64,000 bases of DNA from Coptis chinensis (lineage: Eukaryota > Streptophyta > Magnoliopsida > Ranunculales > Ranunculaceae): the NCBI GenBank assembly GCA_015680905.1, contig CM027378.1, forward strand, positions 56,011,501-56,075,500. The letters are read 5' to 3'. Position 1 is the first letter of the stretch. Each line of letters begins with the position of its first letter. Of the stretch, positions 2,102-32,383 are shown one piece after another. The notes below the pieces were generated by a model that was given only the letters and a program-made list of their open reading frames with translations, was not told where the DNA came from and did no database searches. Both the position numbers and the translations under genes were made by a program.

Positions 2102-2177
<76 letters not shown>

Positions 2178-3004: not shown

Positions 3005-3040
3005 CTAGCCAGAAAATGCACGTGCTTGCACGTGGGTGAC
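3005..3040 (-). mobile_element. Helitron 3' terminus (5' end not resolved)
   Basis: On the minus strand the sequence shows a hairpin CACGTGCAAGCACGTG, then about ten bases, then CTAG followed by T. This is the Helitron 3' layout (hairpin plus CTRR, inserted between A and T). The + strand base before CTAG is A at 3004, as required. The LINE homology stops right beside it, which supports an insertion there. I could not find the matching TC 5' end to the right, so the element's length and content, possibly including sequence up to the FRS pseudogene, are unknown. Confidence 0.45.
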
Positions 3041-4460
3041 AAAAAAACTTACTAAAAACGTAAAAAGTACATGTACACAGTTTCCCATCTACAATTTTTC
3101 ATGAATTATAACACCATCTCCATATATATCCTTTAAAACTGCATGTTAAAACTATATGAATTGTAAGACACTATCATCATGACAAAAAGAGGAGTAGGAA
3201 ATGCACAAATTGAACCTCAAATTAGCGATCATACCACTTTAGGGCGTTGAAAATGTTGACCCATGTTGTATTCAAAAATAGGACGTCAGACCCAGGACAC
3301 TTGCTGATGTCAGCGATAAAATGTGAATTTCCTACTATTCCCTTCTTCGTTTCTCCTATTAATACCATTTTACCTTGAGTTATGATAAAGACAAATCATT
3401 CTCTCCTTCAATTAGAGCGCTAATCTTACCAACCGTCAAAATAGAGAGTGTAGTATTTCAAAATTCCGCGTAGCTTAAAAAACTAAAAGAGTTTGACGAG
3501 GCTTTTGAATGCTGCCTTTTGAGTTTTGAATACACAGTAATTGAAAAAGAGAAAACGCCCGAAGTCTTCTCTCTTGTCTCTATTCCTTGGCTTTGTGAAC
3601 TCCTCTCTACTCTCTCCTCTCTCTATCTTTTCATGGCCAAACTGTAAATCATTTTCGTTGGTCAGAAATCTTGCTGTTGTGTATCACTGCAAATTACGAA
3701 GAAATCAAATGAAAAAAACACGACAAAATTTGCTTTGTCGTTAATTTGGCAAATTTAGATCAAATTTGAGAGTTAAAGTGGTATTGCAACATAGTTTCCA
3801 ACAATACTAACAATACTTCTTAAGAAAAAAAATAAATACCATGGATTGAGAATTGTATGGATATGTTCCCATCCTATGTATTTGTTTACACCATGTTCGC
3901 TATGTCTTTTGTACAAAAGCAAAAGCATCCAGAAAAGATATAGCAATGCCCACCTATACCCAACTATTGCTTCCATCACACACAAATAGGATTTGCACAA
4001 AAATATTGATAGCGATCCATGTACGAAAAATTGAAGACCATCATCTCGATAACTACTATAATCTTTAAAAAACCAAAAGAATTGAGTCCATACCATTTGC
4101 TTCCATATCCCTTCATATTCTATAAACCTGCAAAATGAAGTTGTTCTAAAACTAATAAGAAATATTAAGGGCAGTTGATTACATTTCCTGAAGGGGCTCA
4201 TTAAGATCAATGAATGTGTTCCCATAGGTTGTTGTTGATTCCTACAACATAAATAATAATAATAATAATAATAATAATTAAGACAACTTGAGTAATATTA
4301 ACAAAGCAAGACTTTTCGTACTTACCCGATTGAAAGTTTGAGTTGGATAGCTTTGGCCAACAATTGGTGATTGTTGCACATTACTTTCACCAAGACCCTA
4401 CACAATTTGGCTCAAAAAGCAAGAATAGTCTGTAAACATGAGTAAGATGAAGAGATCTTT
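3041..4460. other. Intergenic, no gene supported
   Basis: AT-rich sequence without a convincing gene. Open frames at 3541-3744 (+) and 3773-4225 (-) have hydrophobic, low-information translations and no recognisable domain. An (AAT)n tract lies at about 4252-4278. Part of this stretch may belong to the Helitron whose 3' end is at 3005. Confidence 0.4.
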
Positions 4461-4467
4461 TCATTAC

Positions 4468-7071
4468 CTAACTAGAATTATAGGGCTCAAGATTAGTCTT
4501 CGTAGCACAAGCTTCAACATTTTGGCCTGAAACAAGTAAATACCAATAACTGAACATGAGTTAAACATGAATGCACATGACGGTTTTACTTGATGTATTG
4601 AGTTGCTCATACCTCTTTTCCTTTTCCTTCCTTGGCTCATTTTAGACGTATCAGTGGATATTACAACTGAAGATTGTTGATTGCACAAGCTAACAACACA
4701 AGATTTATCATATAGGAATCAGTTCAACAAATACAAAGCTAAGAATGACTATAATTTACTATGATTTAGTGTCTGGCTTGGAGCTCTTTTTGTTCTTGTC
4801 TTGCCATATATGATGGTATTCTTTTTTGTCTCCCCTTGTGCTTCAAAATGGGTGGATCAACTAGTGGCTTAATTTGCTTTGTCCATATGGCTCCTTAAAC
4901 ATTTTTGGCTATCATTAAGTCCACTTTCAATATGATTTAGAGAACTGATTCTCATATTTTTCATTATAGACTCAACTTCTTTTAATACTTGATGGAAACC
5001 CGACATTGCTATCTTGTAAACTTTGATAGACGTAGCACCTTTAGTAGCGATATTAACAGCTTCAAAACAAAGGCTACTAAATCTGCTTGTATTAGCCCTA
5101 TGACAATCAGCTACTATCTCCCATCCCTCTTTGTTTGTAACTGATCCAGACTTTGCATCCCTAGTCCATCTCTTTAATATATATTGATGAGGAAGGTGCA
5201 AAACATCCATAACAACAAAAATCTTCAAACATGCCTATAGAAGTAACCGGCAAATTCATACAATAGACAACTACAAGTGGCACTATTGTCTTCACAGTCA
5301 AAACTTACTGTTGGAAAAGTGTTTTCATGGCCCAATCTCCACACACGAATGAAATGTGGACCTTGTCCCAACTTCCTCAACTTTTTTTTGACGATATGAA
5401 AAACTTTCATGTAACTGATCCCGAAACCTTGTAAATATTTCTCTTGTGTAAATTTCTACAACTTCCTTCTCAATTTCCATTGAAAATCTCAAAGCACACT
5501 TTATATAATTGGTTTCATAGGCCTCGTCACTTTCAGCCTCCCTTCTAACAATGACAGCCATTTGGTATTGTTTCATAAATGTCAACAAGGGCAAACTACT
5601 TTTCAAGTAACCATCGAAGTATGCATTTATACTTTCACTGAGTTGGGTTGTGTACATGGCTACAAAAAATATGTCACAAGCATAAATAGATGCCTACTTT
5701 TGTCTCTTTTCATAAAGCCTTGCTAACCACTTGTTCCCTTCTAAGTCATACATTTCAATCATCTCTTTCCAACTAAGCTCAAACTCTTCGATCATCGGTC
5801 TCGTTCCCATACAAACAATACATGAAGTCATCCCAAAAGCCTTTTTTTGAATTAATCACATGTGACAAATTTGTCTTTGTATTTCTAGTAATATGTCATG
5901 TACAAAAGCGATGGCGTGTACCTGGTAATACCTTTTCTATTGCTCCTCCAATCCTTAATTCTTGATCGGTAAGAATCACTCTTAACTTGGTTGCTTACCA
6001 TTCATTTACCTCATCCACATTTCATAACCCATTCAAATGACTCCTCGCATTCATTGTAAAGCATCGCACCTCCAAATATTATTGTTTGGAAATAATTATT
6101 GATGCCGACAATTGGTATAAATGGCATGCCATATCTATTTGTCCCATATGTAGGATCAAAACAAACAACATCCCCAAAATAATGATAATCCATCATTGAT
6201 TGCACATCAGCCCAAAAAAAATGCTCGGTATGTCTATCTGAATCAATTTGGATAGAGTGAAAGAATGATGGATTATCCACTTCTTGACGCTCGAAGAATT
6301 CAAGAACAGACTGTGCATCTCCCACTAAAAGCTCATGGATGTCTTCGAATTTTACCAAAAAGGTTTCTGGCATCTCTTTCATTGTAGCCAACATTGCAGC
6401 TTCCTCCAACTTCAGTTCCCATGTATCGCATCATAAGATTTGTTTTGATCCCAGCTAACTGCATGTTCTGAAACACACGTTCTTGCTCTTCCGCTATCTT
6501 CCTTGAAGACCTCAGTTTGTGCCTTTTAGTCGGAGTTACAAGTGGATGATTGTGTTCTTCGATAACTCGAGAGACAATCCAAGTTTTGTCATCTTTTGTT
6601 CGGGTGTACATTATCGCATTGCATCCTGCCTGTTCTTGAATTGGATCTATTTTTCTGCCTTTCTTCAAACGGTTTTGAAGAATTGCTAAAACCTTGGAGT
6701 GAACAACAGTACGAGCATGCATTAATTTCTTTTGTGCATTGAGATTTAGAAGTCGAGCACCTCCTAACGCTGAATCCAATCCACCTTGCATAATTTTTGT
6801 AATAATTATATGCCTCATCTGGTGAATCAAATTCAATGCCAACACATAGACATAATTTATCCGTTTTATCTTCATAATCTCCCTCTTCTATTTCAACAAT
6901 TTGAGACCCATTTATATTATTTTCAGCAACATCATCCTTGGCTTCATCAAAATCTTCAGAATTATAATTGCCATCCCCATAAATCTCTTCAAATTGATCT
7001 GGGTCAGTAAAAACTTCTTCATTCCCTTTAATGTTATCAAAACCAAAATCAATAGAAAAAATTATTGACAT
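4468..7071 (-). pseudogene. FAR1-RELATED SEQUENCE-like pseudogene (MULE-transposase-derived)
   Basis: Minus-strand pieces follow the FRS domain order. About 7054-6625 gives an acidic N-terminus and the FAR1 DNA-binding start (EFDSPDEAYNYYKNYAR). About 6625-6430 gives GCNAIMYTRTKDDKTW and EEHNHPLVTPTKRHKLRS. About 6345-6011 gives the MULE transposase core (FGDVVCFDPTYGTNRYGMPF). About 5960-5330 carries more of the transposase fold (TQLSESINAYFDGYLKS). About 5320-5225 holds a SWIM zinc finger with C-S-C...C/Y-R-H-V. C-terminal exon-like pieces follow at about 4860-4769, 4690-4608 and 4526-4468. Frameshifts near 6625 and 6340-6400 and a TGA in place of a conserved Trp codon near 5918 disable it. 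The 5' coding end is cut by the fold-back MITE at 7055. FRS proteins are nuclear transcription factors derived from Mutator transposase; this copy should make none. Confidence 0.8.
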
Positions 7072-7466
7072 GGGTACTGGACTATAGTGGATTTTACATT
7101 ATAGGTATTGTATTATATTTTTTGCAAAATAGGATTCCGTATATTTCAAATATTGCTAATATGGGTACTTGTTATGTACGTTGTTAAGTATTTATACGTA
7201 TTTGATGATTTGGCAAACGGAGTTAACTAATTTTTCAACGGTCAAAATTTGTTTGCTTCATAATTGTACAACAGTCAAAATTTGAAATTAGTTGACTCCG
7301 TTTGCCAAATCATCCAATACATATAAATACTTAACAGCGTACATAACGAGTACCCATATTAGCAATATTTGAAATATACGGTACCCTATTTTTCAAAAAA
7401 AAAAATACTACATTACCCATAATGTAAAATCCACTATAGTTCAGTACCCATGTTAATAATTTTTTC
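7055..7466. mobile_element. Fold-back Mutator-type MITE, 412 bp
   Basis: The two halves are near-perfect inverted copies, from GAAAAAATTATTGACATGG on the left to its complement on the right, meeting around 7250. It is flanked by a perfect 9-bp direct repeat AAATCAATA (7046-7054 and 7467-7475), the target-duplication length typical of Mutator-like elements. It lies at the 5' end of the FRS-like coding sequence, and the ATG at 7071 sits in its terminal repeat. No coding capacity. Confidence 0.85.
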
Positions 7467-7475
7467 AAATCAATA

Positions 7476-9049
7476 TTGTATTGGTTTGGCAGAAAAAATA
7501 TGAAGTTGGGAATGAGTTACTTGATAGAAAATCGAATTCCATAGAATGGCTAGTAAAGAAGGACACTAGCTAGAAAACATAAACTAAGGATTTCGGACGA
7601 TTGTTCAACAAATCAGGCGGTGGTCAGTTGCCAAAACTAAAAGAGGGAAGGCGGCAATTTTCTAACTGGGTTGGGTTTATGATTAGATCGTTTAAGCAGT
7701 TGACCCAATGCGGAACCGGTTAGTTCGGGAGGTTTTTTATTAAACCCGAATGAACCGGACGGTTAGCCAGTGGGCCGAGCCAATACCAGTCTGGCTAATT
7801 CTGCTATTCTTAGAAATCTAAAATATATTGTTTACAAGCTAGCAGACTCGAACCTTGGTTCCACTACTGACTTATCTTATTCTTCAACTGATGTGCCACA
7901 TTTTCCACAAAGTGTTGCTGATATATGTAGGTATATATATAAATTTACTACAAGTAGTGACCCATTGGTCCAACCACGTACTAACCTAGTGACCCATTCC
8001 CTTCACCCGGTTGACCACTGGGCTGGGTTTGATAACACTACTATTTTTTAGTTCTATATCCCATCTGGGTATGAGCTATCCATTTGGACGGCTTGGACGG
8101 CTATAAGCAAAGTGCACATTGATTCAAGGAGATCTCTCCTTATCAGTTCCCTTTTACCTATTTAAAATACGTGTAATTACTTTCTTACCCTTTTGTACTT
8201 AATTAACCTCTCTAAAACCTCTCTTTTTCAAAACCAATTTTTGTTCCTCTCGTCCTTTCCTTCTCTCTGCCATATCTCTTTATCGATTTTCTCTTCCATC
8301 CTCAAAATCCCTTCCTAAGCATTAGGAGGTTTCGCTTGTCTTGAAACTCACGGGAGAAAATTTGTGTTGCATGTTTGGAAGGAAACTTTGGTTTTTGCAT
8401 AACTTATGGTAAACAAGTGAGTACCTTTTTTTCGTTTTTATCATAAATAGTTAGTGATGGTGATGGCAATTCAAGTTGTTATGGAGGGTGGAGGTGGTGG
8501 TGGTGGTGGTGGTGGAGAAGTGTTCAATAAAAAAAAATATTAACTACCTAAGCTCCACCCTTGGATTAAATGAATGAGATGATGTCATGTGTAATTTTTA
8601 ATAATTGGTCCTACTCTTAATAGCAATATTTGCAGTTTGGTCCTCAAATAGGTCACGTGTACAATATGTGCAGGGTATTATGGGCATTTTCAAAAAAATA
8701 TGGATGGAATAGACGTGAGTCGTTCGGTCAACTCACAGTTAAGGCAAAGTCAACGCACTTTAACGGCAATTTTGGACCAAAGTGCAATAAACAATTAATT
8801 GTGGATCAAATCCTAATACCACTATTATCACTAGGACCAAAATGCAAAAACCCAAAAAAAAATAATACAATACTATAACTCAAAAACTATGATAGCATAT
8901 GGAGAAAAACAATATTAAAAAATTTCTATTATAGATCAATTTTGTTATAGTGATAAGCACGCACCGTCTACTCGTTTTTTTTCTATTTCACGCAGAAGGA
9001 ATGCTTCACCAATGGCCATTTCAGGCTAGTAGTAGTAGTAATTAATAGT
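7476..9049. other. Intergenic, no gene supported
   Basis: Only short frames without recognisable domains. A (GGT)n tract lies at about 8491-8514. The phrase 'ggaccaaa(g/a)tgcaa' recurs around 8772 and 8836 and resembles repeat-derived DNA, but no element boundary was found. Confidence 0.4.
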
Positions 9050-9560
9050 GTATGTAACGAACATCCTATCAAGTATGTGATGTGCACGCAGACACACAGT
9101 CCACACATAACGACTCTGCCAGCTCAACTCGACTCCAAGAACACAAGCACTCACTTACTCATCAAGATCAGTTCAGCATCAATGACTCGTCACTCAACTC
9201 ATGACATTATCATCTGCCACCCTCGTCATTGTTATCATTAGCATCAGACCTTTACCCATTGCAACACTCAAATCATGACCATCATATCATTACATCTTTA
9301 ACCACACTCTTTCTTTATCAACTCAAACAACATAATACCTGGAACCACCACACACGTGCAGCCTGTGGGACGTGTCGCTCATCCTAGCAGTACACATGTC
9401 CATACCACCACACATATCCTACCAAATATTGCTCATAACACCTATAAAAGTCAACCTCAGAACTACGTTGGCTTGATTCCAGTCTCACTCATAAAGTGTT
9501 GGATACGTAGGCATCTACAGGAACCATTTCCATCCACCAAAACCATTCCCTTTCTTCATG
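9050..9560 (+). mobile_element. LTR-like remnant of a Tat-type Ty3/gypsy element
   Basis: CACCTATAAAAG (TATA-like) near 9440 is followed by GAACTACGTTGGCTTGATTCC-like sequence and GGATACGTAGGCATCT near 9490-9515. The same ordered motifs occur in the fossil at 1270-1350. The upstream part is C/A-rich, as in U3 regions. No matching second LTR, target duplication or coding region was found, so this is a worn solo or truncated LTR. Ends are approximate. Confidence 0.35.
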
Positions 9561-10039
9561 TAGATTAGAACTAAGTCATAAACATTTGGTGTAATATCAT
9601 GTTAATCCCTTAGGATAAAAATAGGCATTTATAGTGTCGTTTGTCTTCAATTTTAGTGTGTGTTTATCACATCCCTGTGTTTTAAAAGCTGCAAAGTTAC
9701 TAACTAACACAAAGGTTGAAATATGTGTGTTTAGTTATGTGTTTTACATTATTATCGGCGGTGCTAATTTGAAATCATTATTGGTAGTACTCAATAGTTC
9801 CAAATTGCACAATCAAAGCTAGTTTTTGGCTTCTCCAATTTTAACACCAAAGTTCACTAATATATCATCGTTGTTGAAGTTTTTATTTAAGGTCCTTGCA
9901 ATGATGATAATAATATCGAAGTGTACAAATTTTCTTATTGTGATCATTTATCAGTAGGTCTCAATAGTGTCAATCTCCTGATATAGTTCGTTATAGTTGA
10001 TATTAAGAAGAAACTTTATTTCGAATTAGTTTGTTTTGC

Positions 10040-16390: not shown

Positions 16391-17129
16391 ATGTTAGTCT
16401 AGATGTTTGTTATAGCTGCTTTCTTATTTTATTTATATTTGGTTGCTGGAGTTTTATTTAGCAGATTGTGTTTGAAAACTAATTTATGCACTATGAGTAT
16501 TTGCCTAATACTTTCTGAGGTTTAAACCATAACTGTTAAAGAGTTTTGGACAATGCGTGGTTGCCTTGTTTAAAGTAGAGAAAAAATCGTTTAAAGATTT
16601 ACTATAGTTGTGCATGTGAATCTCACAATAGTTGAATATACTAATATGGACTGTAATCTGCTGAAGTCTCGTGCAAAGACACTGATCATTAAGAGGTCTC
16701 TGTATGGCTTTATTGAGTTGTGGAAGGAATTGTAGTGTCGAGCAAGCCAACTTGAAGCTGGTATTACGCTCACTATGGGTTGTATTGCGCACAGCATTGA
16801 TCTAATTTGCTAAATCTGGTTGCCGAACAGGTTCTTCAAAAATCACTTTGCACGGTAGTTCAGACTTCAGAACTAATAAAAGATTTTATGTGTACTTGCG
16901 TACTTGTGTATACATCAGACTTCAGAAAATCAAAACTATACCGAAGTACATGTGTAGTTGTGTATGTTTGTACACTTACGTCACACGCTTATTTTTCATT
17001 CCATAGACAACGGAGTCGCAAGAAACGCAGAACGTAATAGACCATCACTACCAATTATCAATTAATAAAATTAGCACACATTCACTCGAAGTCTTGAACA
17101 TTACACAGGAACGTAGGAATAGATAATCA
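16391..17129. other. NOB1 3' flank, nothing else recognised
   Basis: Contains the NOB1 3' UTR in its first few hundred bases. Small frames here have no recognisable domains. The stretch ends at the Helitron insertion point. Confidence 0.4.
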
Positions 17130-18114
17130 CTAGATTTTGGACCGGGCATACGCTCGGGATCTATTAAATATTTTGTGTGTTGAAAAAGCTTTACAAAATG
17201 TCTCACACAAATTTTCGAATCAGAATATATTTTTATTAAAAATAAATAGAAATACGTTAATGACCAGCGATTATGGTGCATAAGTACTTGGAAACTAAGG
17301 GATCAAATTGAGATAGTCTCTTCACTTTGTGGTTTAGGATATTAATCCGTAATTTTCAAATAGAATTATCTTAAACTCTATCTAGCTTGTATAATAGTTT
17401 ACTTAGATTTATGGTGATTTAGTGGCACATTTTCGAATAAGAATATATTTTTATTGAAAATAAACCGAAATACGTTAATGAGCAACGATTATAGTGCATA
17501 AGTAATTAGAAACAAAGGGATCAAATTGAGATAGTCTCTTCATATTGTGGTTTAGAATATTAATCCGTAATTTTCAAATAAAATTATTTTAAACTCGATC
17601 TAGCTTGTATAATAATTTTATTAGATTTATGGTGATTTAGCGGTAAATCATCACCATTCGGCTTACGTAATGTGTACAAATCACTAAAACAGATTGATTG
17701 TTTCCATATCCTCAAAGAATATACTACTCCCACTTGAAAAGATTTTTCACATGAACGTGTCCTACGAATAGGTGTCATTATATTAAATTATTCTAAAAAA
17801 TATTAGCAATTATGCATAGCTATGAGATATGAAAATTATACTAATTACTCATTTAAATTTCTTGACCACTCTCTATAAAAAGGAAGCACCAAGCCTTGAT
17901 AAAACTCATCGATTTCTTTTTATTGTTAGGTTTAATAATAAAAGTTTGATTGAAGCTTTGTGAGAATGCCCAATATGACGAAGATAATATTGAAGTTACT
18001 TGAATAACAAGACATTCCCAATTACAATAAAAGAATTATAATAAACACTATTTAAAATGCAAAACTATATTTGTTGAGACATTTATTCCCCCTACATATA
18101 ATACAAATATGTTT

Positions 18115-19540
18115 TAGGATTATTAGTTCAATGCATTTGCATCAAGTTTTTTATTTTCCATTAATTATTCTTTGAAGTTAGTTTAATATAGTACATTGCA
18201 TCCAGTTTCCAATTTCTCATTAATTATTCTTTGAGGTTAGTTCAATGCAATTGCATCAAGTTTCCAATTTCCCGTTAATTATTATTTGAGGTTAGTTTAG
18301 TGTAATTGCATCTACTTATTTATGATTTCCCGTTCGTTATCCATTAAGGTTAATTCAGTACAGTTGCATCAAGTTTTCAATGTTTCGTTAATTAGTCTTT
18401 GAGATTAGTTCATTGCATTTGCATCCAGGTTCCAATCTCCCATTAATTACTCTTTGAGGTTAGTTCAATACATCTGCATCCAGTTTCTGATTTTCCGTTA
18501 ATTGCTTTTCTAGGTTAGTTCGATAGTTTATAATTTGTTTGCATACATGTAAGAGTCTGTTTTTATAAACTCACTTTTGTTTTGGGTTCCTAATTACTCG
18601 TAATTGCTAATGTGAGAAAGCTAAAAAAGTGGACATTTATGCTTTGAGGTCAGTGCGATGCAGTTATATCCGACTTCCGATTTCTAGTTAACTATTTTTT
18701 TAGATTATTTCAATGCATTTGCATTCAATTTCTGATTTTCCGTTAGTTAATTTCTGATTTTAGTTTAATGCAGTTGCATCCAGTTGTTGGTTTTCCGTTA
18801 ATTATTTTTTGAGGTTAGTTCAATGCAGTTGCATCCAATTTCCAATTTTATGTTAATTGTTCTTTGAGGTTAGTTCAATGCATTTGTATCAAGTTTTTGA
18901 TTTCTCGTTAATTATTTTTTGAGGTTAGTTCAATGCAGTTACATCAAATTTATAATTTACCGTTAATTATTCATTTAGGTTAGTTCAGTGCAATTTCATC
19001 TATTTTTCAATGTTTCATTAATTAGTCTTTGAGATTAGTTCATTGCATTTAGATCTAGTTTCCGATTTTCTGTTAATAACTCTTTAAAGTTAGTCCAATA
19101 TATCTGCATCTAGTTTCTAATTATTTGAGGTTAGTTCGATACAATTATATTCGGTTTCTAATTTCCCGCTAACTATTCTTTAAAGTTATTTCAATGCATT
19201 TGCATTTAGTTTCCGATTTCCCACCAATTATTCTATGAGGCTAGTTTAATGCAGTTGCATTCGGTTTTTGATTCTATGTTAATTATTTTTTGAGTTAAGT
19301 TCAATGCATTTGCATCCAGTTTTCGGTTTCCCATTAATTATTATTTGAGGTTTGTTTGATGTATTTGCATACCATTTCCGATTTTCCGTTAAATATTTTT
19401 CAAAGATTTGCATCCAATTTATAATTTTCCGTTAGTTATTCTCTGTCATTAGTTTAATGCAATTTGCATAAAGTTTCCGATTTCTCATTAATTACTCATT
19501 GAGCTCAGTTATGTATTTGAATCCAGTTTTCGATTTTCTT
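18115..19540 (-). repeat. 55-bp tandem array, left Helitron, block 1
   Basis: About 25 degenerate copies. The + strand unit has the order GGTTAGTTCAATGC, ATTTGCATCCAG, TTTCCGATTTCCCG, TTAATTATTCTTTGA; one unit near 18237 counts to 55 bp. Copies vary by substitutions and small indels, so the array is old. The core ATGCAnTTGCAT is nearly self-complementary. Confidence 0.85.
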
Positions 19541-20099
19541 ATAATTATCCAATGTGGTGTGTAATACAAACTTCTACTGATCCATCTGTAATGTCCTTAC
19601 AAACATGACATAAAAAATAAATTATGCTTAATTTACTATGTGGGATCATCGAAGATTATCCAGTTCCCGATTTCCCGTTAATTATTCTTTAAATTATGCA
19701 TGACTCATTATGTGAAATCTTCAAAGATTATCTACGAACGGGTGCTGTTATATTAATTATTCTGAAAAATATTTGCAAATATATAAAACTATTAGATATT
19801 GATATATATTATATTGATCACTCAACCAAATTTTTTATAACGTGAAAATCTCACTCTCCATTAAAAAAAACATAACTCGCCTTTGATAAAACCCTTCAAC
19901 TTCATTTTGTTGTTTAATAATAGAAGTTTGATTGAAATTTTATGAGATTGCCTAATAAGAAGAAGTTCATATATATTGAAGCTACTCGAATGGCAAGGAG
20001 TTCTCAATCATACGGAAAGACATAATATAAACATTATTTTAAATGTAAAACTATACTTATCGAGACATTCCCATAACATATAACCCAACTATATTTTGA

Positions 20100-21005
20100 G
20101 GTTAGTTCAATGCATTTGCATACAGTTTTTGATTTTCCGTTATTTATATTTTGAGGTTAGTCAAATGCGGTTGCATCCAATTTTCTATTCCGTTATTTAT
20201 TTTTTGAGATCGGTTCAATGTAGTTGCATCCGGTTTCGATTTTCGTTAATTATTCTTTTCGGTTAGTTCAATACATTTGCATCCAATTTCCTGTTAATTG
20301 TTCTTTGAGGTCAGTTCAATGCATTTGCATCCAGTTTCTGATTTTTCGTTAATTATTCTGTGAGATTAGTTTAATGCATTTGCATCCAGTTTCCAATTTT
20401 TCGTTTATTATTTGATAAAGTTGCATTTGCATATAGTTTTTGATTTCCCGTTAATTATTGTTTGAGGTTAGTTCAATGAATTTGCAACCAGTTTCCGATT
20501 TCCCGTTAATTACTTCTTGAGGTTTTGTATCCAGTGTATTTTTTGAGATTAGTTCAATGCAATTGTATCCGGTTTCCGATTTCTCGTTAATTATTTTTTA
20601 AGATTAGTTCCACGCATTTGCATTATGTTTCCAATTTATAATTAATTTTTCTTTGAGGTTAGTTTAATGCAGTTGCATCTAGTTTTCGATTTCTTGTTAA
20701 TTTAATCTTTGAGGGTTAACTCAATGCATTTGCATCCAGTTTCTGATTTTCCGACAATTATTTTTTTTATGTTAGTTTGATGTATTTACATCCAAGTTTT
20801 GATTTTTCATTAATTATTATTTATGGTTAGTTTAATGCAGTTGTATCCATATTTAGATTTTCTATTAATTACTTTTTAAGATTTGTTTAATGATTGCATT
20901 TGCATTCAGTTTTCGATTTTTCGTTAAATATTATTTGAAGTTAGTTCGATATATTTGCATCCAGTTTTCGGTTCCCCATTAATTGTTTTTTGACGTTAGT
21001 TTTAT
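20100..21005 (-). repeat. 55-bp tandem array, left Helitron, block 2
   Basis: About 16 copies of the same unit as block 1, in the same orientation. A roughly 380-bp non-array segment at about 19725-20105 separates the blocks, and that segment resembles the one at 17750-18125. Confidence 0.85.
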
Positions 21006-21589
21006 TCAGTATTATACATATTTTAAAATATTTGTCATTATTGTTTTGCCGTTATTATTAGTATTATTTTCATTTTCTATTATATATTTTGTGATGTTAT
21101 TTTTTGTATAATTGTTTTTAACTATGTTTTGATGCTGTGTTAAGGATATATTTGAAATAAGTCAGTGCTTTATCATAGACACTAAAATTGTATGATTTGT
21201 AATAGGGAATTAGTTTTTACAAATCACCTATTTTTTAGCAATTTTTTTTTATTTGATCAAATATATAAGAATTGGAACACTAAAAGTGTTTGATTCGTAA
21301 TAGGAAATTATTTTCTACAAATCATTTATTTTTTAGCAATTTTTTTTATTTGATCAAATATATAAGAATTGGAAATACACTCAAACTCTCTAAATATAAG
21401 AATTAGAAATACATTCAAACTCTCCAAAGAGGTTCCATGTACGTGGAATTGTAGGCTATTAGAAAATACTATCTTTCATATTGCCACATAGGATAGAGAA
21501 AAGGCTAACTCTCATATTAGAGTGCCACATAGGAGAGAGAAAATCCTCTTTTAAAGGTTTCTGCTTTAGTATATAGATAGTAGATTACA

Positions 21590-22470
21590 ATCAAGTTGGG
21601 ATCCAACAAATAGAAGGAAATGGACGTTGCTTGAGATTGTCTACCAATTGTCTTCTGCTGAACAGGCTTACCCAATCCATCACGAGAACGTAGGAATAGT
21701 CCCTTTCCCAACAATTCTGGAAACAGAGGAATTCCCAGACTCTCATCTCTCCACAGTATAGGTGGAGAAAACACTTTTAGTGCCACAAATATATTTGGTA
21801 GCTCCACTGTCTACCCACCAGTCTATCATATTGCTAACCAGGTTAACCTCGGTAACAACAGCAGAGAAGTTGCCATCTTGAACCATATTGGCATGTGCCT
21901 TATCCTTATTTTTGTTTCCATCATTTGGAAGTTTCTTGTGTTTACAGTCATCCACAGTATGACTACGAGTACCACATACATAACAATAAATATCATGATT
22001 ATATGGCTTCTTGAATTGAGGTTGGGACTGGCTGTTCTTGTTCCAAAGGGGTTCTTCTTATTGGTCTGGGTATAAGGGACTTTGTTCTTAGAAGAACTAG
22101 TACTACCAGGCTTTCCAGTAACAAGGTTAGCCTTAGACTTCAATTCATAAGTCTCTTCTTTTGTTACAGTAATACAGTTATCTTCCGCAATGCGAAGATT
22201 CACAGTGAGGTCTTCCATGATCATTTCTTTTTTCTTGTGTTTTAGGTTGTTCTTATATTCCTTCCAGGAAGAAGATAGTTTCTTAATAATAGTTGCAACC
22301 TTAAACCCCTTACAGATATTGTAACCCTCTTGTAGAATTTTATGAACAATAATCTGCTTAACAAGTTTCAAGGTATGTAGTCAAATAAAACTTCATATTC
22401 ATATGCCAACGCTTAAAATTCTTTCCATCAAAAAATTTAGGCTTGACAAACAACTTAACATGAACGAAGT
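21590..22470 (-). mobile_element. Ty1/copia fossil: gag and protease region
   Basis: Minus-strand translations resemble a plant Ty1/copia polyprotein start. A gag (UBN2-type) region runs from about 22465 to 22130, for example KPKFFDGKNFKRWHMNMKF and EGYNICKGFKVATIIKKL. The protease entry WWVDSGATKYIC lies near 21815-21850. The fragment ends abruptly at the Helitron 5' end (21584), and no integrase or RT is present. It is broken, with several breaks. Sequence at about 22500-22900 may be its leader or LTR, but I could not define LTR ends. Confidence 0.7.
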
Positions 22471-23234
22471 AAAAGAGTATACTATTTCACCTTCAGATTG
22501 TTGGAAAACGAATTAATACTGTGTTACCTGATGTCGAGTAGCAGTAATATATAAATAACCAATAAAATAGAGCAGTAAACAAACAATCGAGGCTTGTTAA
22601 ATCACAATGTCCTTAAGGTGAAATTGGCGCCGGTATTCACGCTGACGGTCTCTAGCACACACCCCGGCCAGGATTCAATGACCAATTATCCCACAAGACA
22701 GCACTCAAGCGAGCTCTAGGAACTCTCATACGCACTCCAACATAAGTAAAACCATAGTTTGTAAACATAGAAGAAAAGTAAGTATTTAGTTGTGTAGTTC
22801 GACGGTTGATCTTATAGAAGAAGATAAAGACGACGTTAGCCAGATGCACTAGTCACGCAGTGTGATTGAGGAGATCCTGCGTGGAGGAAAAACGTGGTTT
22901 GACTATTTTTCTAATGCAAGAAAGAAAAAGCCCAAAAACAAGCCCACGTGATGCCCAATTGGAATAGTATAATACATTGCTAAACATGAACTCGTGTATA
23001 ATACATTTTATAATTTTATTTTTTTTGCTTGGTTAATGCATTTTATAATTCATATTCCTAGAACCTAAAATGAACAAGCTAGCCACAAAAATTTGCATAG
23101 AAATAGTAGCTTCTGTAATAATGATTGGTGTTGACGAATACTGATCCCAGATCCCAATTATGATGAACTTAGCAGTAAGGAACCCTTAGGTAAAAAATAA
23201 AATTTGAGATACTTAACCACAACCGCTGCGGCAT
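22471..23234. other. Intergenic; possible copia leader, otherwise nothing recognised
   Basis: No gene. The part next to the copia fossil may be its 5' leader or LTR. Further right only AT-rich sequence is seen, including two TACATTTTATAATT-like words near 22998 and 23035. A T-run on the minus strand opposite 23191-23205 could end Pol III transcription of the tRNA gene. Confidence 0.3.
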
Positions 23235-23307
23235 TGGAGATGCGGGGTATCGATCCCCGTACCTCTCGCATGCTAAGCGAGCGCTCTACCATCTGAGCTA
23301 CATCCCC
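23235..23307 (-). tRNA. tRNA-Ala (AGC)
   Basis: The minus strand reads as a complete 73-nt tRNA. The acceptor starts GGGGATG and pairs with CATCTCC near the 3' end, leaving A as discriminator. The D arm is TAGCTCAGATGGTAGAGC. The anticodon loop is CTTAGCATG with anticodon AGC, and the T arm CGGGGATCGATACCCCG includes the B box. No intron and no encoded CCA, as expected for a nuclear tRNA gene. It carries alanine to GCU/GCC codons. Confidence 0.96.
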
Positions 23308-24199
23308 AATCAACTATATTCATGTATTTTAAATTAATTTATATTAAGGTGCCATAGACCATACCTCAAAGTTCCAGAAGAAGAGAACAAACATGGAAGC
23401 CTTCCCTGTATAATTGCAACAATGAATATGTAAATCTATAGTTACTCACTTACTCTACAAAAATCAACAATTTAAGGAACTTTTTCCTTTGTATATGAAG
23501 ACAAAGTATTGATCAAGATAAACCAATTCAAGCAGACAAACTTTTACATTTCTAGTACCAATCCAAAAACATAGTCAAAAGTCAAAACAAGTGTTTTGGT
23601 CGAACATCAAAACATAAAATTTTCATGGTTCAATAGTAATATAGAATTACTGTCATAATCAACCTATCATGGTATCTTTAAAAACTTAAAAGATTTTGAA
23701 TGTTGTCGGGTACTTAAGTGTTAAGTCCAAGATTAAGTAAGGCACTCCCAATCACCACGTATATGCTCTTGATTTAGTCAATGTCTTGATATTTTGGGTT
23801 TTAGTTTCACTTAAGTTAATTGATCTCCATATAAAAATTTAGACACCAACACTTGCATTCAGGAGGTGGGATCTACTCATTAACACATGATTCAAGGAGT
23901 AGGATTTCGTCCTTAGTTAGACTCTAAAGACCTGGATTCTTCCTGGTTTAGCTAACAGCATTACAGCATGTCAGTCTTCAGGATAATTTAATAACCAGAT
24001 CCAAACAAGGAATTAAAAAATGATTAACAGATTGTTTATTCTGCAATGCTTTTGTTTGCTAAAGGGTAACTTTAATTAGTAAGAGGAAAATTACATGGAA
24101 GTAAATTATTCTGCAATTCTACAGACAGAAACTAACAACAGTTTAAGACTGTTGTTGTTTTTCCTATTTAAGGATATCTAGAATTCTAGATCTCTCCGG
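23308..24199. other. Intergenic, nothing recognised
   Basis: AT-rich sequence without frames, RNA genes or clear repeats. It ends at the TATCGG-type MITE. Confidence 0.4.
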
Positions 24200-24486
24200 A
24201 GCAAGGACCAAAATATCAATATCGGTGAATATATCGGTGTACCCAAAAACCGATATATTTCGGATATATCTATTTTTTGTGTGACCAGTCTAAACTATTT
24301 AAAATATCATAAATATCGGATATATCGGAAATATATTGGAAATATCATATTTATACTAAAAAATAGTCAAAAAATCAAACGATATCTTTAGATATATATT
24401 ATAGCTATACGCCTATACCCTCTTGGCTCTATTTTTCAAGGCTTTACAGAGTCTCCAACTTTTTCTAAACTCTAATACTAATTACG

Positions 24487-24487
24487 G

Positions 24488-24521
<34 letters not shown>
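24487..24521. repeat. Poly-A tract, about 35 bp
   Basis: Pure A run at the junction between two tandem copies of the Helitron 5' end (24385 and 24528). Confidence 0.95.
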
Positions 24522-24524
<3 letters not shown>

Positions 24525-24708
24525 AAATCTTTAGATATATATTATAGTTATACCCTCACCAATCTATTTTTTTGGAGCACTCTAGAGACTTCAATTTTTT
24601 CTAAACTCTATTACTAATTATAAAAAAGTATGATATAAATAAATAATCTCATCTAAAGTTTCACAGAATATCAAACTTTTCTAAAACATATAACTAATTA
24701 TGGGAAAA

Positions 24709-25974
24709 AAAAACTAAATTACAAAAAATAATATTTTCAACCAAAAACGATTTTCCTAAAATCTTTACGCTACAAAGAATAGTTTCCACACTAATCTCAG
24801 ACGAAGTTTAACATAACAAAGTTTCTTTCTAGAAAATGATAATGAAACAATGAAAGAACAAAGGAAAAAATGAATTGAGTTGCTTGAACATTTACTTTAT
24901 GCATTTGTTAACCATACATGTAACTGGAAAAAAGGGAAAAAAAATAAACTAATCATAAAATAAGTAATAGTGTACACCAAAAACAAATAAAATTGTATTG
25001 TATGCAATATATATATGGGCATAACAAATAAAGTTGAATCAATTTGTGGTGTAAAATTTAGTCATAGTTAAAGATTTCAAAAACCACATGCCACAATAAT
25101 TACGATATATTTTAATTAAATTTATGAATTTTATAATTTTCAATTTTAGCGGAATAACGAGATTCAGTTAAAACGGACATTGGCTTAAATAAATTATATA
25201 ACTATTGATTTAGTTAAAATAGACGTTGGGCTTAAATAAATTATATACCAAACCAAACCAAACCAAACCAAAACAAATTACATGTGAAAAATTAAATTAT
25301 ATAAAAAAATAACATCACAAAATATATAATAGCAATTGGAAAAAAAAACCCCAATAATAACAAATATTTTCAAATATATATAATAATCGCATTTAAACTA
25401 ACGCCAAAAGAACAATTACCAGAAACAGAAAACTATATGCAAATGCATTGAACTAACCTCAAATAATATTTAACAGGAAATCAGAAATTGGATGCACATG
25501 CAAACATTAAACTAATAAACTAATCTTAAAAATTAATTAATGGACAATCAGAATATTGATATAACTGCATTAAACTAACCTCAAAAAATAATTAACGGAA
25601 AATCAAAACTTAGATGCAAATACATCAAACTAACACCAACAAATAATTGTCGGGAAATTGGGAACTGGATGCAAATGCATTGAACTAACCCTAAGAGATT
25701 AAATTACTAGGAAATCGGAAATTGGATGCAACTGTATTGAACTAACCTAAAAAAAATAACTAAATTGCAAAAAGTAATATTTTCAACCAAAAACGATTTT
25801 CCTAAAACTCTTACGCCACAAATAATAGTTTCCACACTAATCTCATGTGAAGTTTAACATAACAAAGTTTCTTTCTAGAAAATGATAATGAAACTATGAA
25901 AGAACAAATGAAAAAAATGAATTGAGTTGCTTGAAGATTTACTTTATGCATTTGTTAACCACACATGTTACTGG

Positions 25975-26022
<48 letters not shown>

Positions 26023-26805
26023 CTAATCATAAAATAAGTAATAGTGTACACCAAAAACAAATAAAATTGTATTGTATGCACTATATATATGGGTCTAACA
26101 AATAAAGTTGAATCAATTTGAGGTGTGAAATTTAGTCATAGTTAAGGATTTCAAAAACCACAGGCCACAATAATTACGACATATTCTAATTAAATTTATG
26201 AATTTTATAATTTCCAATTTTAGCGGAATAACGAGATTCAGTTAAAACGGACGTTGGCTTTAATAATTTATATAACTATTGATTTAGTTAAAGTAGACGT
26301 TGGGCTTAAATAAATTATATACCAAACCAAACCAAAACAAATTACATATGGAAAATTAAATTATACAAAAAATAACATCACAAAATATATAATAGCAACT
26401 GGAAAAAAAAACCCCCCCAATAATAACAAATATTTTCAAATATATATAATATTGCATGAAACTGACGTCAAAGAACAATTAATGAGAAACAGAAAACTAT
26501 ATGCAAATACATCGAACTAACCTCAAATAATATTTAACGGGAAATCGAAAATTGGATGCACATGCAAGCATTAAACTAATCTTAAAAATTAATTAATGGA
26601 CAATTAGAATATTGATACAACTGCATTAAACTAACCTCAAAGAATAAATAACGGGAAATCAAAACTTGAATGCACATACATCAAACTAACACCAACAAAT
26701 AATTATCTGGAAATCAAAAACTGGATGCAAATGCATTGAACTAACCCTCAGAGATTAAATTACCGGAAAATCGGAAACTGGATGCAACTGTATTGAACTA
26801 ACCTA
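24709..26805. repeat. Direct tandem duplication, unit about 1.05 kb
   Basis: The segment at 24709-25744 (starting ACTAAATTACAAAAAATAAT, with ACCAAAAACGATTTTCC) recurs at 25745-26805 with a few percent difference. It includes the AAACCAAACC tract, the CATCACAAAATATATAATAG segment and several 55-bp units. Both copies end with CTGTATTGAACTAACC followed by A-rich sequence. Confidence 0.85.
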
Positions 26806-27315
26806 AAAAAAATAACTATAAATTGGAAACAGGATGCAAATGTGTGAAACTAATCTTTACAAATAATTAACGGGAAATCGGAAACTGGATGCAACTACAC
26901 TAAACTAATTTCAAAAAATAAATTTGATGCAAATGCATTGAACTAACCTCAAGAAATAATTAACATAAAATCAGAAATTGGATGCAAATTCATTGAAATA
27001 ACCTCAAATAATAATTAACGGGAAATCAGAAACTAGATGCAAATACAACCTCATCGAATAATAAACGAGAAATCGAAAACTGGCCGGATGCAAATGTATT
27101 AAACTAATCTAAAAAAATGATTAACGGAAAATTGGAAACTAGATGCAAATGGATTTAACTGAGCTCGAAGAATAATTAGCAGTAAATTGGAAATTGGATG
27201 CAAATGCATTAAATTACAGCAAATAATAATTAACAAGAAATCGGAAACTGGATGTAACTGCATTGAACTAACCTCAAAAAATAAATAACAGAAAATCAGA
27301 AATTTGATGCAAATG
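25425..27315 (+). repeat. 55-bp tandem array, right Helitron, blocks 1a and 1b
   Basis: Copies at about 25425-25744 and 26480-27315 carry the complement of the left-Helitron unit: GGAAACTGGATGC, AAATGCATTGAACTAACC, TCAAAGAATAATTAACGGG. The blocks are separated by unique sequence of the 1.05-kb duplication. About 20 copies in total. Confidence 0.85.
25975..26017. repeat. Poly-A tract, about 43 bp
   Basis: Long A run in the second copy of the 1.05-kb duplication. The first copy has only short A runs at the same place (about 24930-24948), so this run expanded after the duplication. Confidence 0.95.
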
Positions 27316-27884
27316 CATTGAACTAACTTCAAAATATAGTTGTGTTATATGTTGTGGAAATGTCTCGATAAGTATAGTTTTGTATTTAAAACGGTGTTTA
27401 TCTAATCTTTTTTCGTATAATTGGGAACACTTTGCTATTCAAGTAGTTTCAATATGAACTTTATCTTATTAGACAATTTCATAAAACTTCAATCAAACTT
27501 TTATTATTAAACAACAAATGAAGTTGAAAGGTTTTATCAATGGCGAGTTATTTTTTTTTAATAGAGAGTACGTGAGATTTTCATGTTATAAGAAATTTGG
27601 ATGAATGAGTAATATAATATCTGTATATAATAGTTATGCATATATAGTTGAATATATTTTTCATAATAATTAATATGACAGGACCCGTTCGTAGATAATC
27701 TTTGAAGATCCCACATAGTAAGTCAGGTATATAATTTAAATAATAATTAACGGAAAATCGGAAACTGGATAATGTTTGATGATCCAATATAGTAAATCAA
27801 GCATAATTTATTTTTATATCATGTTTGCAAGGACATTACATATGGATAAGTAGAAAGTTGGTATTACACACCACATTGGATAAT

Positions 27885-29350
27885 TAAAAGAAAATCGAAA
27901 ATTGGATTCAAATAGATTGAACTGAGCTCAAAGAGTAATTAACGGGAAATTAAAATTTTTTATGCAAATGCAATAAACTAAACTCAAAAAGTAATTAATT
28001 AGAAATCGGAAACTGGATGCAACTGTATTAAACTAACGTCAGAGAATAACTAATGAGAAATTAGAAATTGGATGCAAATACTTGAAAAATATTTAACTGT
28101 AAATCGGAAACGGTATGCAAAAATGCATCAAACAAACCTCAAATAATAATTAACGATGAATCAGAAACTAGATGCAAATGTATTGAACTAACCTCAAAAT
28201 ATAATTAACAGGAAATCAAAAACCAAATGCAACTGCATTGAACTAATCTCATAGAATAATTGTCAGGAAATCAGAAACTACATGCAAATACATTAAAATA
28301 ACATCAAAGAATAGTTAACGAGAAATCATAAATCGGATGAAATTGCATTGAACTAATTAAAATCTCAAAACATAAATAATCATAAATCATAAACTAGATG
28401 CAGATGTATTAAACTAACCTTAAAGAGTTATAAATAAAAAATCGAAAGTTGTATGCAAGTATAATGAACTAATCTAAAGACTAATTAACGAATATAGAAA
28501 CATAAAAAAATGGATGTAAATGCACTAAACTAACCTCAATAAATAATTAACGGGAAATCATAAATTTGATGCAACTGCATTGAACAAATCTCAAAAAATA
28601 ATTAACGGGAAATCGAAAACTTGCTGCAAATACATTAAACTAACCTCGAAAAATAATTAATGGAAAATCAGAAATTGGATGCAACTGCATTGAACTAACC
28701 TTAAAGAATAATTAACGGAAAATAGAAAACTAGATGTAACTGCATTAAACTAAAATCATATATTAACTAATAGGTCGGGAAATCAGAAATTTGATGCAAT
28801 ATCCTTGATGAATATTTAATGGAAAATCAGAAACTGGATGCAAATGCATTAAAATAACCTTAAATAATAGTTAACTAGAAATCGAAAACCGGATGTAACT
28901 ACATCGAACTACCCTCAAAGCATAAATAACTGGAAATTGATTGGAAACTAGATGCGAACTAACTTCGAAAAGTAATTAACGGGAAATCAGAAACTGGATG
29001 CAAATGTATTAAACTAACATCAAAGAGTAATTAACGGAAAATTGGAACCTTAATGCAAATGCAATTAACTAATCTCAAATAGTCATTAACGAAACATTGA
29101 AAACTAGATGGAACTGCACTAAATTAATTTTAATGAATTACTAACGGAAAATCGTAAACTTGGTGCAACTGCACTAAAGTAACCTCAAATAATAATTAAC
29201 GGAAAATCAAAAACTTGATACAACTACATTGAATTAATCTCAAAGAATAATTAATGGAAAATCGGAAACTAGATCCAACTACATACATTGAACTAGCCTC
29301 AAAGAATAATTAACGTAAAATTAAAAACTTAATGTAAATGCATTGAACTA
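27885..29350 (+). repeat. 55-bp tandem array, right Helitron, block 2
   Basis: About 26 degenerate copies of the same unit. The block is preceded (about 27320-27720) and followed (about 29350-29729) by related 380-bp segments that both contain CCCGTTCGTAG near their right end. Confidence 0.85.
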
Positions 29351-29881
29351 ACCTCAAAATATAGTTGTATTATATATAGGGAGAATATAATATCTCGACA
29401 AGTATAGTTTTGCATTTTAAGTAGTACTTATTATAATTATTTTATTATGATTGAGAATGTATTGCTATTTAAGTAGCTTCAATATCATCTTCGCCACATT
29501 GAGCATTCTCACAAAATTTCAATCAAACTTCTATTATTAAACATAACAACTAAAATAAATCGACGGGTTTTACCAAGATTTGGTGCTTTCGTTTGATAGA
29601 GAGTGGTACAAAAAATTTAAACAAGTGATTAATATAATTTTCATATCTCATAGCTATGAATAGTTGCTAATATTTTTTAGAATAATTTAATATAACGACA
29701 CCCGTTCGTAGGACGGGTTCAAAAGGTAGTATATCGTATATATCGATTATATCGGCGATATAAAGTTTTATATTAAAAATTCCGATATAAATGGTTCAAT
29801 ATTCAGTAGATATATATCGGAAATATCGATATCGGTGTACCAAAAAATCGATATATATCGGAGATATTTTGGTCCTTGCTC

Positions 29882-31603
29882 GGAGTGACTGTATTAACTT
29901 TCAGTTCTTGTGAAATTGGCATGATGGAATTGTAGATAGCCCAAGACCTGTAGGTTCGAGTCCTATTTATAGGATTTCATTGACAACTTATTCGAGTAGG
30001 GTTTCGAACCTAGGATATTTTCCAATATACGAGCAATTTTGACCAATTTTACTAGTACCAATCAATTGAAATTATTATGATCCATTTTGGTGTTATCTTA
30101 CGAAACGGACCGGGCCCTCTATAAATGTAATAGAAATAGGGGCAATATAGAGGTATTGGAAATCCATTTATATATTGTTCTCTTAAATTTGAAGATAGGT
30201 GGCCATATCAAGGTCCATTGGTGATGCCCTCACTGTCGAGAAACAAAATGGCTTTCCTTAATTTTTATTTGTTCATTTCTTATAATACAGGCTTCAAGGT
30301 GATCCAGTGCACATTGTAGATTGTAATGGTTCGATCGAAATTAACAAAACCTTAGCACGGCCTTGGATGTGCTCACTAATAAAGCGATCAATACCAGATC
30401 TACGTTCAGAACAATTTTGTGAAGGGATTAACGTAGTACCATTTTATTGGACTTTGCACTACTTTGTTTGGTCACATTATTAACAGGCCCGATTATGGAC
30501 TCAAAAAGGTGGATGGTTCACCACTCCACCCGATCCAAAACTCATCTATCCAATAATCCAACCCACATTTCATTTAGTCGTAAAACTGCCAATGCCCAAA
30601 GTCAAAATCGCCGAATGGAGAGTTCCACATGAAGACGTAAGTAGACTCCAAATTTATTTCTTATACTCCACGTTTTGTCTTTAGTTGATCCAACCATACC
30701 ACGTGGTGATCTCCTAAGAAGTTAAATTGACTTGAAAGTGCTTGTGGTTCCATTTTCACATTTTTTGTATATGCCCAAAAAGATGCATTTGATGCATTGG
30801 ATGACATATTATGGCAGATTACAAATGGGAAAGGTTGATGAACTACTCGCTCAAGGGCATTAAACATTTAAACCATGATCAAACTACTCATACAATGGCA
30901 AATTTATGATTAAATTGTACTTAACTTATTCACACTCACACATGACCCAACCAGTCATCTTTTTTTTGTGGAATGCCTTATGGAACAAAATTTTGACCAC
31001 TAATAAGCCACGAAATGGTGGTCCGTCACCCCAATTATTTTCCAAACAGTCAAGTTGGTAACCAGTTTTTGTTACAATTATGATCAAAACACTAAAAGTG
31101 TGTATTTGGTTGGTGAGGATTTGAGGAATGAGCAATTGGATCTAACATGTGAGATTAGTCAGAATCAGACACCTTTTCAAACAAAGATAGTCTCATAGTC
31201 TCTCACTAACAAGTAACAACAGACATTTACCATTATTATTAATTTAAAATTTTCTTGCCATATTTATTGAAAAAAAAATTACCACTGTTAACTTGGCTTG
31301 GAAAACACCATAAAGTGTTTAAACAGATTTTAATTATTGCACTCTAAAATCATAATAACATTGCAATCATGGTCCGACTTATTGTCATGGGCTTGTGCTT
31401 ATTAACCGAGTAGGGAACTACAAAGAGTTGTGATTTCTCAGTGGCAACGTGTACGTGCCCTGTGCCCTGTGCCCAGTTGAACACCATGGTCGGCAAATAA
31501 ACATCAATTTAGAATTTTCAAAAATAACATAAAATAAATATACAAACTCAGACTCATCCATTCCAATGTTGTAACTTTGGGTTTCTCTTAAATGTGGTTC
31601 TAT
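29882..31603. other. Intergenic; one degenerate tRNA-like sequence
   Basis: No gene supported. Around 29905-29975 a tRNA-like stretch has TTGGCATGATGG and a perfect B box GGTTCGAGTCC, but it cannot be folded into a full cloverleaf by eye. Short frames at 30447-31135 have no recognisable domains. Confidence 0.35.
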
Positions 31604-31978
31604 CCAAGGCCCAAAATATCGATATCGATAAATATATCGGTGTACCCAAAAACCGATATATATCGGATATATCTATTTTTTTGGTAACCAGTCCAAACTA
31701 TTTAAAATATCGAAAATATCGGATATATCGGAAATATCATAAATATATTGGAAATATCGGATTTATATTTTAAAATGGTCAAAAAGTCAACTGATATATA
31801 TATCGATTATATCGGAAATATCGATTATATCGGTGATATAAAGTTTCATATCGGAAATTCCGATATATATCGGAAAAAAAAGAATTCTATATTCGGTGGA
31901 TATATGTCGGAAATATCGATGTCAGTGTACCAAAATACCGATATATATCGGATATATCTGCGATATTTTGGTCCATGG
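31604..31978. mobile_element. TATCGG-type MITE, compact copy A
   Basis: About 375 bp, rich in (G)ATATATCGG words. It begins CCAAGGCCCAAAATATC and ends GATATTTTGGTCCATGG, imperfect inverted repeats of each other. TTCTAT (TGGTTCTAT if the ambiguous TGG is counted) lies on both sides. A target duplication of 6-9 bp would suit a Mutator-like or hAT-like source. No meaningful coding capacity. Confidence 0.75.
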
Positions 31979-31984
31979 TTCTAT

Positions 31985-32383
31985 CCAAGACCCAAAATAT
32001 CGATATCGATAAATATATCGATGTATCCAAAAACCGATATATATATTGGATATATCAGATATATCTATTTTTTTTGGTGAATAGTCCAAACTATTTAAAA
32101 TATCGGAAATATTGAATATATCGAAAATATAATATCAAAAATATATTGAAAATATCATATTTATATTAAAAAATAGTAAAAAAGTCAACTGATATATATC
32201 ATAAATATCAGATATATTGATTATATCGGCGATATAAAGTTTTATATCAAAAAATTTGATATATATCGAGAAAAAAAATTCTATATTTGATAGATATATG
32301 TCAGAAATATCAATATCGGTGTACCAAAATACCGATATATATTAACTATATATCGAATATATCGGCGATATATTGGTCCTTGG
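31985..32383. mobile_element. TATCGG-type MITE, compact copy B
   Basis: A second copy of about 399 bp directly after copy A, in the same orientation, with CCAAGACCCAAAATATC at the left and TATTGGTCCTTGG at the right. It shares the TTCTAT between the copies and has another TTCTAT at 32384. The two copies differ by many substitutions, so this is not a very recent duplication. Confidence 0.75.

Follow-up and report, generated by a model that had tools for sequence, protein, structure and literature searches.

Two Helitrons lie close together in a 64,000-nucleotide stretch of the Coptis chinensis genome (GenBank assembly GCA_015680905.1, contig CM027378.1, positions 56,011,501 to 56,075,500 of the forward strand), which we call the window and whose coordinates are used throughout. 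The left Helitron, on the minus strand, is referred to as L, and the right one, on the plus strand, as R; copies that we retrieved elsewhere in the genome carry labels such as L012, L043, L044 and L045. The 5' ends of L and R face each other across 2.8 kb, and their 3' ends point outward. Between them stands a gene for tRNA-Ala, which an initial annotation of this DNA, made by a model from the letters alone, had already placed there. Both ARAGORN and Rfam call this gene at 23234-23308 (minus strand), and it alone reaches gathering scores in an RNA scan of 16500-30500. The same annotation had described the two elements as built from arrays of a 55-bp unit, and the intervals, strands and unit period that it gave are correct according to Tandem Repeats Finder (TRF), an iterated unit profile and BLAST. 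The coordinates of all features are collected in Table 1.

We first describe the ends of the elements. R was compared with 20 copies, retrieved from matches 89-93% identical to its 5' kilobase. Once L015 and L027 are left out, which align only from base 29-30, an exact TC start is found at 16 of the 19 printed 5' junctions, the other three having altered first bases, and 14 of these 16 starts are preceded by A. Six of the 21 copies were excluded at the 3' side, where the end is missing or unaligned to the last base; T is the next base in all 15 printed junctions, and 14 of them end in CTAG, the window copy being the one with GTAG instead of this family form. Not every R copy is an independent insertion, since L012 and L026 have common flanks, as do L014 and L016. 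The L sample consists of the window copy and seven retrieved ones (L037-L043 among them), and the full-length scored matches to the L end regions are 92-98% identical. All eight L copies read CTAG followed by T at the 3' junction. Five of the eight start with an exact TC, preceded by A in four of the five, and the other three are unaligned at the first bases.

The initial annotation had made its Helitron reading depend on other genomic copies that end at the same termini, and such copies are many. In the whole genome there are 706 matches (≤2 mismatches) to the R 3' terminus and 932 (≤3 mismatches) to the family form of the L 3' terminus, while the reversed-pattern controls give 0 in both cases. 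The variant of the L terminus found in the window yields 36 matches as opposed to 932, because it lacks one stem G that is present in most of the retrieved L relatives.

The features of canonical Helitrons (Helitron1) are found here: a 5' TC, a 3' CTRR, a hairpin some 10-12 nt from the 3' end, and insertion between an A and a T that leaves the target unduplicated. In the case of R the insertion can be read from empty sites. R is lodged in an element resembling terminal inverted repeat (TIR) elements, and two related unoccupied host sites, at 31605-31957 and 31986-32342, cross the insertion point without target duplication. The ends of R and L, together with the A/T target (a slash marks an insertion point), fit Helitron1. 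Neither element has an open reading frame of at least 80 amino acids within its bounds, and both are therefore non-autonomous; L overlaps a single frame of that length (96 amino acids, 21517-21807), which covers 68 bp at the 5' end of the element.

We turn now to the interior. TRF reports degenerate 55-bp arrays at 18123-21001 and 25393-29358, and with the iterated profile we count 44 units in L and 52 in R (51 in a later run). With partial units counted this makes 96; the initial estimate was 85-90. By BLAST, L 472-3422 is 76% identical to R 1975-4982, in inverted orientation on the chromosome, and L 3063-3833 is 85% identical to R 4571-5337, so that the module as a whole comprises L 472-3833 and R 1975-5337. 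L and R are 84% identical in the unique spacer between their arrays, and the interior word CATCACAAAATATATAATA, which had been singled out as common to both, indeed lies inside an exact 37-nt run that L and R have in common. The first 471 bp and the last ~620 bp of L, on the other hand, have no R counterpart among the BLAST matches listed. Because the end regions have no counterpart, we regard L and R as two families with a common module. The relatedness of the two Helitrons proposed by the initial annotation is thus supported by the module; their ends are unrelated, and they are not two copies of one family.

The arrays behave as fixed parts of the elements that carry them. Within one element, units are on average 0.79-0.80 identical and neighbours are no more alike (four elements), whereas the best-matching units of different copies of one family average 0.96-0.97 (three within-family pairs). 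In these three pairs the units are collinear in 33 of 40, 31 of 38 and 32 of 34 steps. The number of units is likewise stable: 51-52 in 12 of 14 R copies (L014 has 45 and L022 has 59), and 42-44 in all eight L copies. Gain or loss of a block of ~1045 bp, present in one to three copies among the R relatives, changes the R number by about seven. That block aside, the compared copies of each family have preserved the order and number of their units, and in this sense the arrays are frozen cargo. The arrays that we read lie inside Helitrons and are short, degenerate and fixed in register.

These observations bear on an alternative account, in which the arrays are an independent minisatellite or satellite, repeatedly picked up by Helitrons and expanding by slippage or unequal exchange. 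Such a satellite might be expected from the abundance of the unit core, which has 23,857 matches genome-wide (≤2 mismatches; reversed-pattern control, 0), from the 77 of 100 listed matches that have no R or L 3' end among the matches listed, and from the variable copy number of the 1-kb block and of a 218-bp repeat in L. It does not sit well with the conservation of unit number and order within each family, nor with units that are closer between family copies than to their own neighbours. Moreover, at least 23 of the 100 listed unit matches (all of them exact and on C1) are followed on their own strand, within 7 kb, by an R or L 3' end, compared with 0.28 per 100 random positions and 2 when strands are flipped; this is a lower bound, because the R and L ends compared were only those among the matches listed. 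Two of the remaining 77 loci were retrieved and both proved to be Helitrons. One, L044, is an L copy. The other, L045:558-4004, is a member of a third family that is more diverged. It contains 54 units, and a T follows its diverged R-type 3' end; we did not find the 5' end. We therefore consider an independent satellite quite improbable. The initial annotation had also raised the prospect of arrays occurring genome-wide without Helitron ends; the 100 unit matches listed, of which at least 23 have an end downstream and of which both of the other loci retrieved are Helitrons, answer this in part.

A second possibility is that the unit, with its core ATGCANNTGCAT, is an iteron-like or folded recruitment signal selected to aid transposition. 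The consensus frequency is 0.88 in the core, compared with 0.83 in the rest of the unit, and a study of the rice Helitron Mothra proposed better transposition through tandem blocks (PMC4683698). The difference in conservation is small, however, and the full palindrome is kept in 23 of 96 units alone. Compensatory double changes at the five pairs of the core number 0, 0, 0, 2 and 0, and pairing is no better than in shuffled units. Selection of this kind seems to us unlikely, if somewhat less so than the satellite.

The copies also give an indication of age. In the 3' region, mean pairwise divergence is 4.4% among 14 R copies and 3.5% among eight L copies, and transitions make up about 73-75% of the differences, as would be expected of old, methylated repeats. 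Among these copies, the ends of three of the 14 R elements (L009, L013, L021) and the starts of three of the eight L elements (L039, L040, L042) were extrapolated 4-40 bases past the alignment.

Inside the elements lie broken 3' terminators, which we call fossils. Fossil 1, common to L and R, was found in all 14 R and all eight L copies aligned (5-6 substitutions allowed; up to 5 in R); its left arm and loop have single changes in some copies, and more in L040. It terminates a stretch of ~362 bp similar to the last 362 bp of R (69% identity between the two copies in R), and repeats of this 3'-terminal region are what the initial annotation had recorded as 380-bp segments. Fossil 2 is confined to L. 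Its right arm is damaged in all eight L copies, its left arm ACCCGT is intact in five of the eight, and the window copy has a mutated left arm as well. Beyond fossil 2, L runs on for ~600 bp to an unrelated hairpin and CTAG. When folded as DNA, the family forms of the working ends reach -5.9 kcal/mol for R (z -2.0) and -4.9 kcal/mol for L (z -2.6), compared with -0.6 to -1.5 kcal/mol for the family forms of the fossils.

The fossils are found throughout the genome in numbers that can be compared with those of the ends. Fossil 1 has 1660 matches (≤2 mismatches) and fossil 2 has 682 (≤3 mismatches); the former is close to 706 plus 932, and the counts are compatible, with mismatch limits that differ. 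At least 14 of the 39 places on C1 with an exact fossil 1 have an end among the matches listed within 4 kb (13 L, 1 R). Fossil 2 is followed by an L end among the matches listed at 14 of 25 places in the region covered, and the distances from the one to the other cluster near 400, 615, 835 and 1055 bp, with three in between (675, 678 and 861). These distances fit one to four copies of the 218-bp repeat. On the simplest reading of this anatomy, a terminator was lost twice, and transposition then read through to the next one. With one broken terminator common to both families and a second broken in L only, each in hundreds of copies, the two families record with unusual clarity how the 3' ends of Helitrons may change.

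Taken together, these results lead us to a reading that we hold with considerable confidence: L and R are canonical, non-autonomous Helitrons mobilised in trans, now independent, mutated and inverted neighbours, whose arrays are old cargo and whose bodies probably grew stepwise. RepHel proteins would mobilise both elements in trans by rolling-circle transposition, with the 55-bp arrays copied along as fixed blocks. Two modules may have been put in line either when one Helitron inserted within another's end or beside it, or through rolling-circle tandem copies. Once the inner 3' terminator decays, transposition would therefore read through to the next terminator, and in this way R would keep one fossil terminator and the L family two, plus a new terminator as its end. 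The ends, the copy number, the related empty sites of R, the in-register arrays and the fossil terminators on which this account draws are observed, and nested insertions are observed too, one of L into L and one of L into R, each with both junctions read. The genome is also rich in the Helitron Rep domain PF14214, for which a search returned 157 matches (150 of 2000 candidates scored). What we infer is the partner that supplied RepHel, the role of read-through as the cause, and the sequence of events.

Several results weigh against this reading. No empty site was found for L, whose joined flanks match the L locus alone. The unrelated 471 bp at the 5' end of L are unexplained by simple 3' read-through. 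Between L and R the order of the units shows weak collinearity (5 of 34 steps in one pair and 7 of 34 in another, with best matches averaging 0.90-0.91), and the shared module could for this reason also reflect later recombination. The folding contrast between end and fossil fails in the window L itself, where the element's own terminator reaches -2.8 kcal/mol (z -1.4) and the mutated fossil 2 reaches -3.3 kcal/mol. Finally, no autonomous element with R or L ends was found: the R and L termini are absent from eight Rep loci of 3.5 kb, although these extend only 1.5 kb past the Rep match. Comparing the 100 listed R ends by eye with the Rep matches listed, we saw none within 20 kb.

The inverted layout of the pair raises a separate question. 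The initial annotation had suggested that the locus may act as a source of small RNA or as a nucleation point for rearrangement, and one may indeed picture a functional inverted pair, whose long hairpin RNA is diced to small RNAs or which seeds rearrangements. The inverted arms are ~3 kb long and ~76% identical with a longest exact run of 37 nt, and elsewhere L and R repeatedly adjoin each other in inverted orientation, at a precise junction described below. Yet arms of this identity are diverged, and hundreds of other L and R copies exist on both strands. Chance also suffices: by strict counts, 0.98 L-R pairs with facing 5' ends and a gap of at most 2.8 kb are expected genome-wide.

We also counted close pairs in a sub-sample, consisting of C1 and of C2 up to 73.4 Mb, in which both lists are complete at ≤1 mismatch (32 R and 59 L ends); the list omits the window L, whose end is altered, and the L of L044, which shows 3 mismatches at its end. 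Of the six close pairs found, four are L-L (0.21 expected) and two are L-R (0.23 expected); none is inverted, the two elements having the same orientation in all six. In the four L-L pairs the 3' ends are 4.2-4.6 kb apart, a spacing that suggests tail-to-head tandems or nested insertion. The inverted layout in the window is thus probably accidental and can be explained without any function; the small-RNA and rearrangement roles are unsupported, and we regard them as highly unlikely, more so than any other alternative weighed here.

One inverted arrangement does recur. In L044:1400-5950 an L lies inverted within an R-type 5' end, 14 bp in, with both junctions read. A search prompted by this copy, which counted one site and one orientation, found the L044-type junction at 19 places in the genome, 12 of them with ≤1 mismatch (control, 0); both junctions were read in L044 alone. 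The chance expectation is 0.003-0.05, given random choice of A/T and 706 to 10,000 R-type 5' sites. Two of the 12 places are 17.7 kb apart on C5 and may represent a local duplication. Further flanks were compared at six of the 18 other places, all with ≤1 mismatch, which together with L044 makes seven. All seven match the R 5' region past the searched letters. Five of them match from their first base onward, which corresponds to R 15 or to R 125 (the doubled terminus); the other two have their best match, in a shortened variant, from R 165 onward, starting 18 bases in. Where the flanks can be aligned to one another they are 69-89% identical, and so the places are not duplicates of one event. 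The L-R pair of the window is not of this type.

The recurrent junction may mean that Helitron 5' ends are preferred landing sites, with the transposition machinery or the unwound 5' end of the resident element guiding the incoming strand. We offer this tentatively, as a possibility that we hold to be doubtful; the ends may instead offer no more than a favoured AT-rich site, through a plain preference for TATATA/TTATA. If true, 5'-end targeting would yield inverted 5'-5' pairs and, in conjunction with terminator decay, would drive composite growth. In the parts of the literature that describe insertion into other Helitrons, we found general statements and single cases, and no recurrent base-exact junction. 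With this junction, the general statement that Helitrons insert near one another becomes a question that is exact to the base and can be counted in any plant assembly.

Two other joined copies may be mentioned here. In L043 (1-60 and 4440-4601) one L has entered another of like orientation, 7 bp inside its 5' end, and the two form a tail-to-head pair. In L018 (reverse complement, 5860-6170) an R is joined tail to head to a second R that is without its first 8 nt.

Nothing in L or R departs from the Helitron kind, and for their main ingredients there are published precedents. Among the plant elements that we found, the one closest in design is DHH_Mothra of rice, a high-copy non-autonomous Helitron with sub-types of 1.3-2.7 kb, and the closest in outcome are the Cg_HINEs of the Pacific oyster. 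Like L and R, Mothra has TC...CTAG ends, a 3' hairpin, no RepHel and two direct-repeat blocks that make up most of the element; it is described, however, with six repeats per consensus block and with blocks whose number, order and orientation vary (PMC4683698), whereas L and R have ~45-60 units of 55 bp, in register in the copies compared, and modules separated by broken terminators. The Cg_HINE Helentrons also disperse satellite-like arrays, have shared modules and have no partner identified in their description, but they are of the Helentron class, with subterminal inverted repeats as opposed to canonical TC/CTAG ends (PMC7492417).

The terminators and junctions have parallels as well. Maize helitrons show pseudo 3' termini with damaged CTAG, ascribed to nesting and decay, and insert near or inside other helitrons, as L and R do; there are no 55-bp arrays in what was described (PMC3288121). 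A doubled short (<200 bp) 5' terminus like that of R, ascribed to self-insertion, is reported for the FoHelis of Fusarium oxysporum, for which opposite-orientation composites were also proposed; these elements, unlike R, are non-canonical, Helitron2-like and fungal (PMC5148889). For Helibat/Helraiser, loss of the 3' hairpin was shown experimentally to lead to read-through and new 3' ends (PMC4778049), whereas in the case of L and R we infer read-through from fossils.

Table 1. Features of Helitrons L and R in the window (window coordinates, in order along the forward strand).
Feature	Position	Strand	Remarks
Helitron L	17130-21584	-	4455 bp, non-autonomous; 5' TC end at 21584, 3' CTAG end at 17130
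L 3' terminator	17130-17158	-	hairpin and CTAG; one stem G missing relative to family form
218-bp tandem duplication, L-specific 3' region	17208-17643	-	TRF and BLAST
Broken internal terminator 2, L (fossil 2)	17741-17774	-	homolog of R's working 3' end, right arm damaged
L array 2 of 55-bp units	18108-19523	-	profile matches L 2062-3477
Broken internal terminator 1 in L (fossil 1)	19717-19742	-	left arm and loop largely kept, right arm lost; common with R
L array 1 of 55-bp units	20087-21009	-	profile matches L 576-1498
L-specific 5' region, L 1-471	21114-21584	-	holds 98-bp tandem duplication (TRF); kept in L037-L043
TIR-like element with ATATCGG repeats, host of R, left part	24194-24384	+	right part 29730-29885
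Helitron R	24385-29729	+	5345 bp, non-autonomous; ends A/TCTTTAG...GTAG/T
Doubled R 5' terminus	24385-24640	+	TCTTTAGATATATATTATAG at 24385, repeated at 24528
Higher-order block of ~1045 bp, two copies	24705-26832	+	R 321-1390 and 1367-2448, 88.6%
55-bp units, first block copy	25393-25762	+	profile
R array of 55-bp units, from second block copy on	26452-27341	+	profile
Broken internal terminator 1 in R (fossil 1)	27684-27709	+	right arm lost
R distal array of 55-bp units	27905-29366	+	profile
R 3' terminator	29698-29729	+	hairpin ACCCGT...ACGGGT, 11 nt, then GTAG (family CTAG)

Some neighbouring features may be added. The two unoccupied relatives of R's host, at 31605-31957 and 31986-32342, form a tandem pair of TIR-like elements 1.7 kb downstream. 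Between L and R, an open reading frame at 21826-22371 (minus strand) resembles a decayed copia-type gag, with a score of 16.6 bits against a Pfam cut-off of 27. The nearest Rep-domain match listed, G000:C2:56133598-56134140 (plus strand), lies ~58 kb to the right of the window, in an open frame of 533 amino acids. Elsewhere in the window, two unrelated tandem repeats, of 78 bp and 32 bp, occupy 46137-46288 and 62547-62660, respectively.

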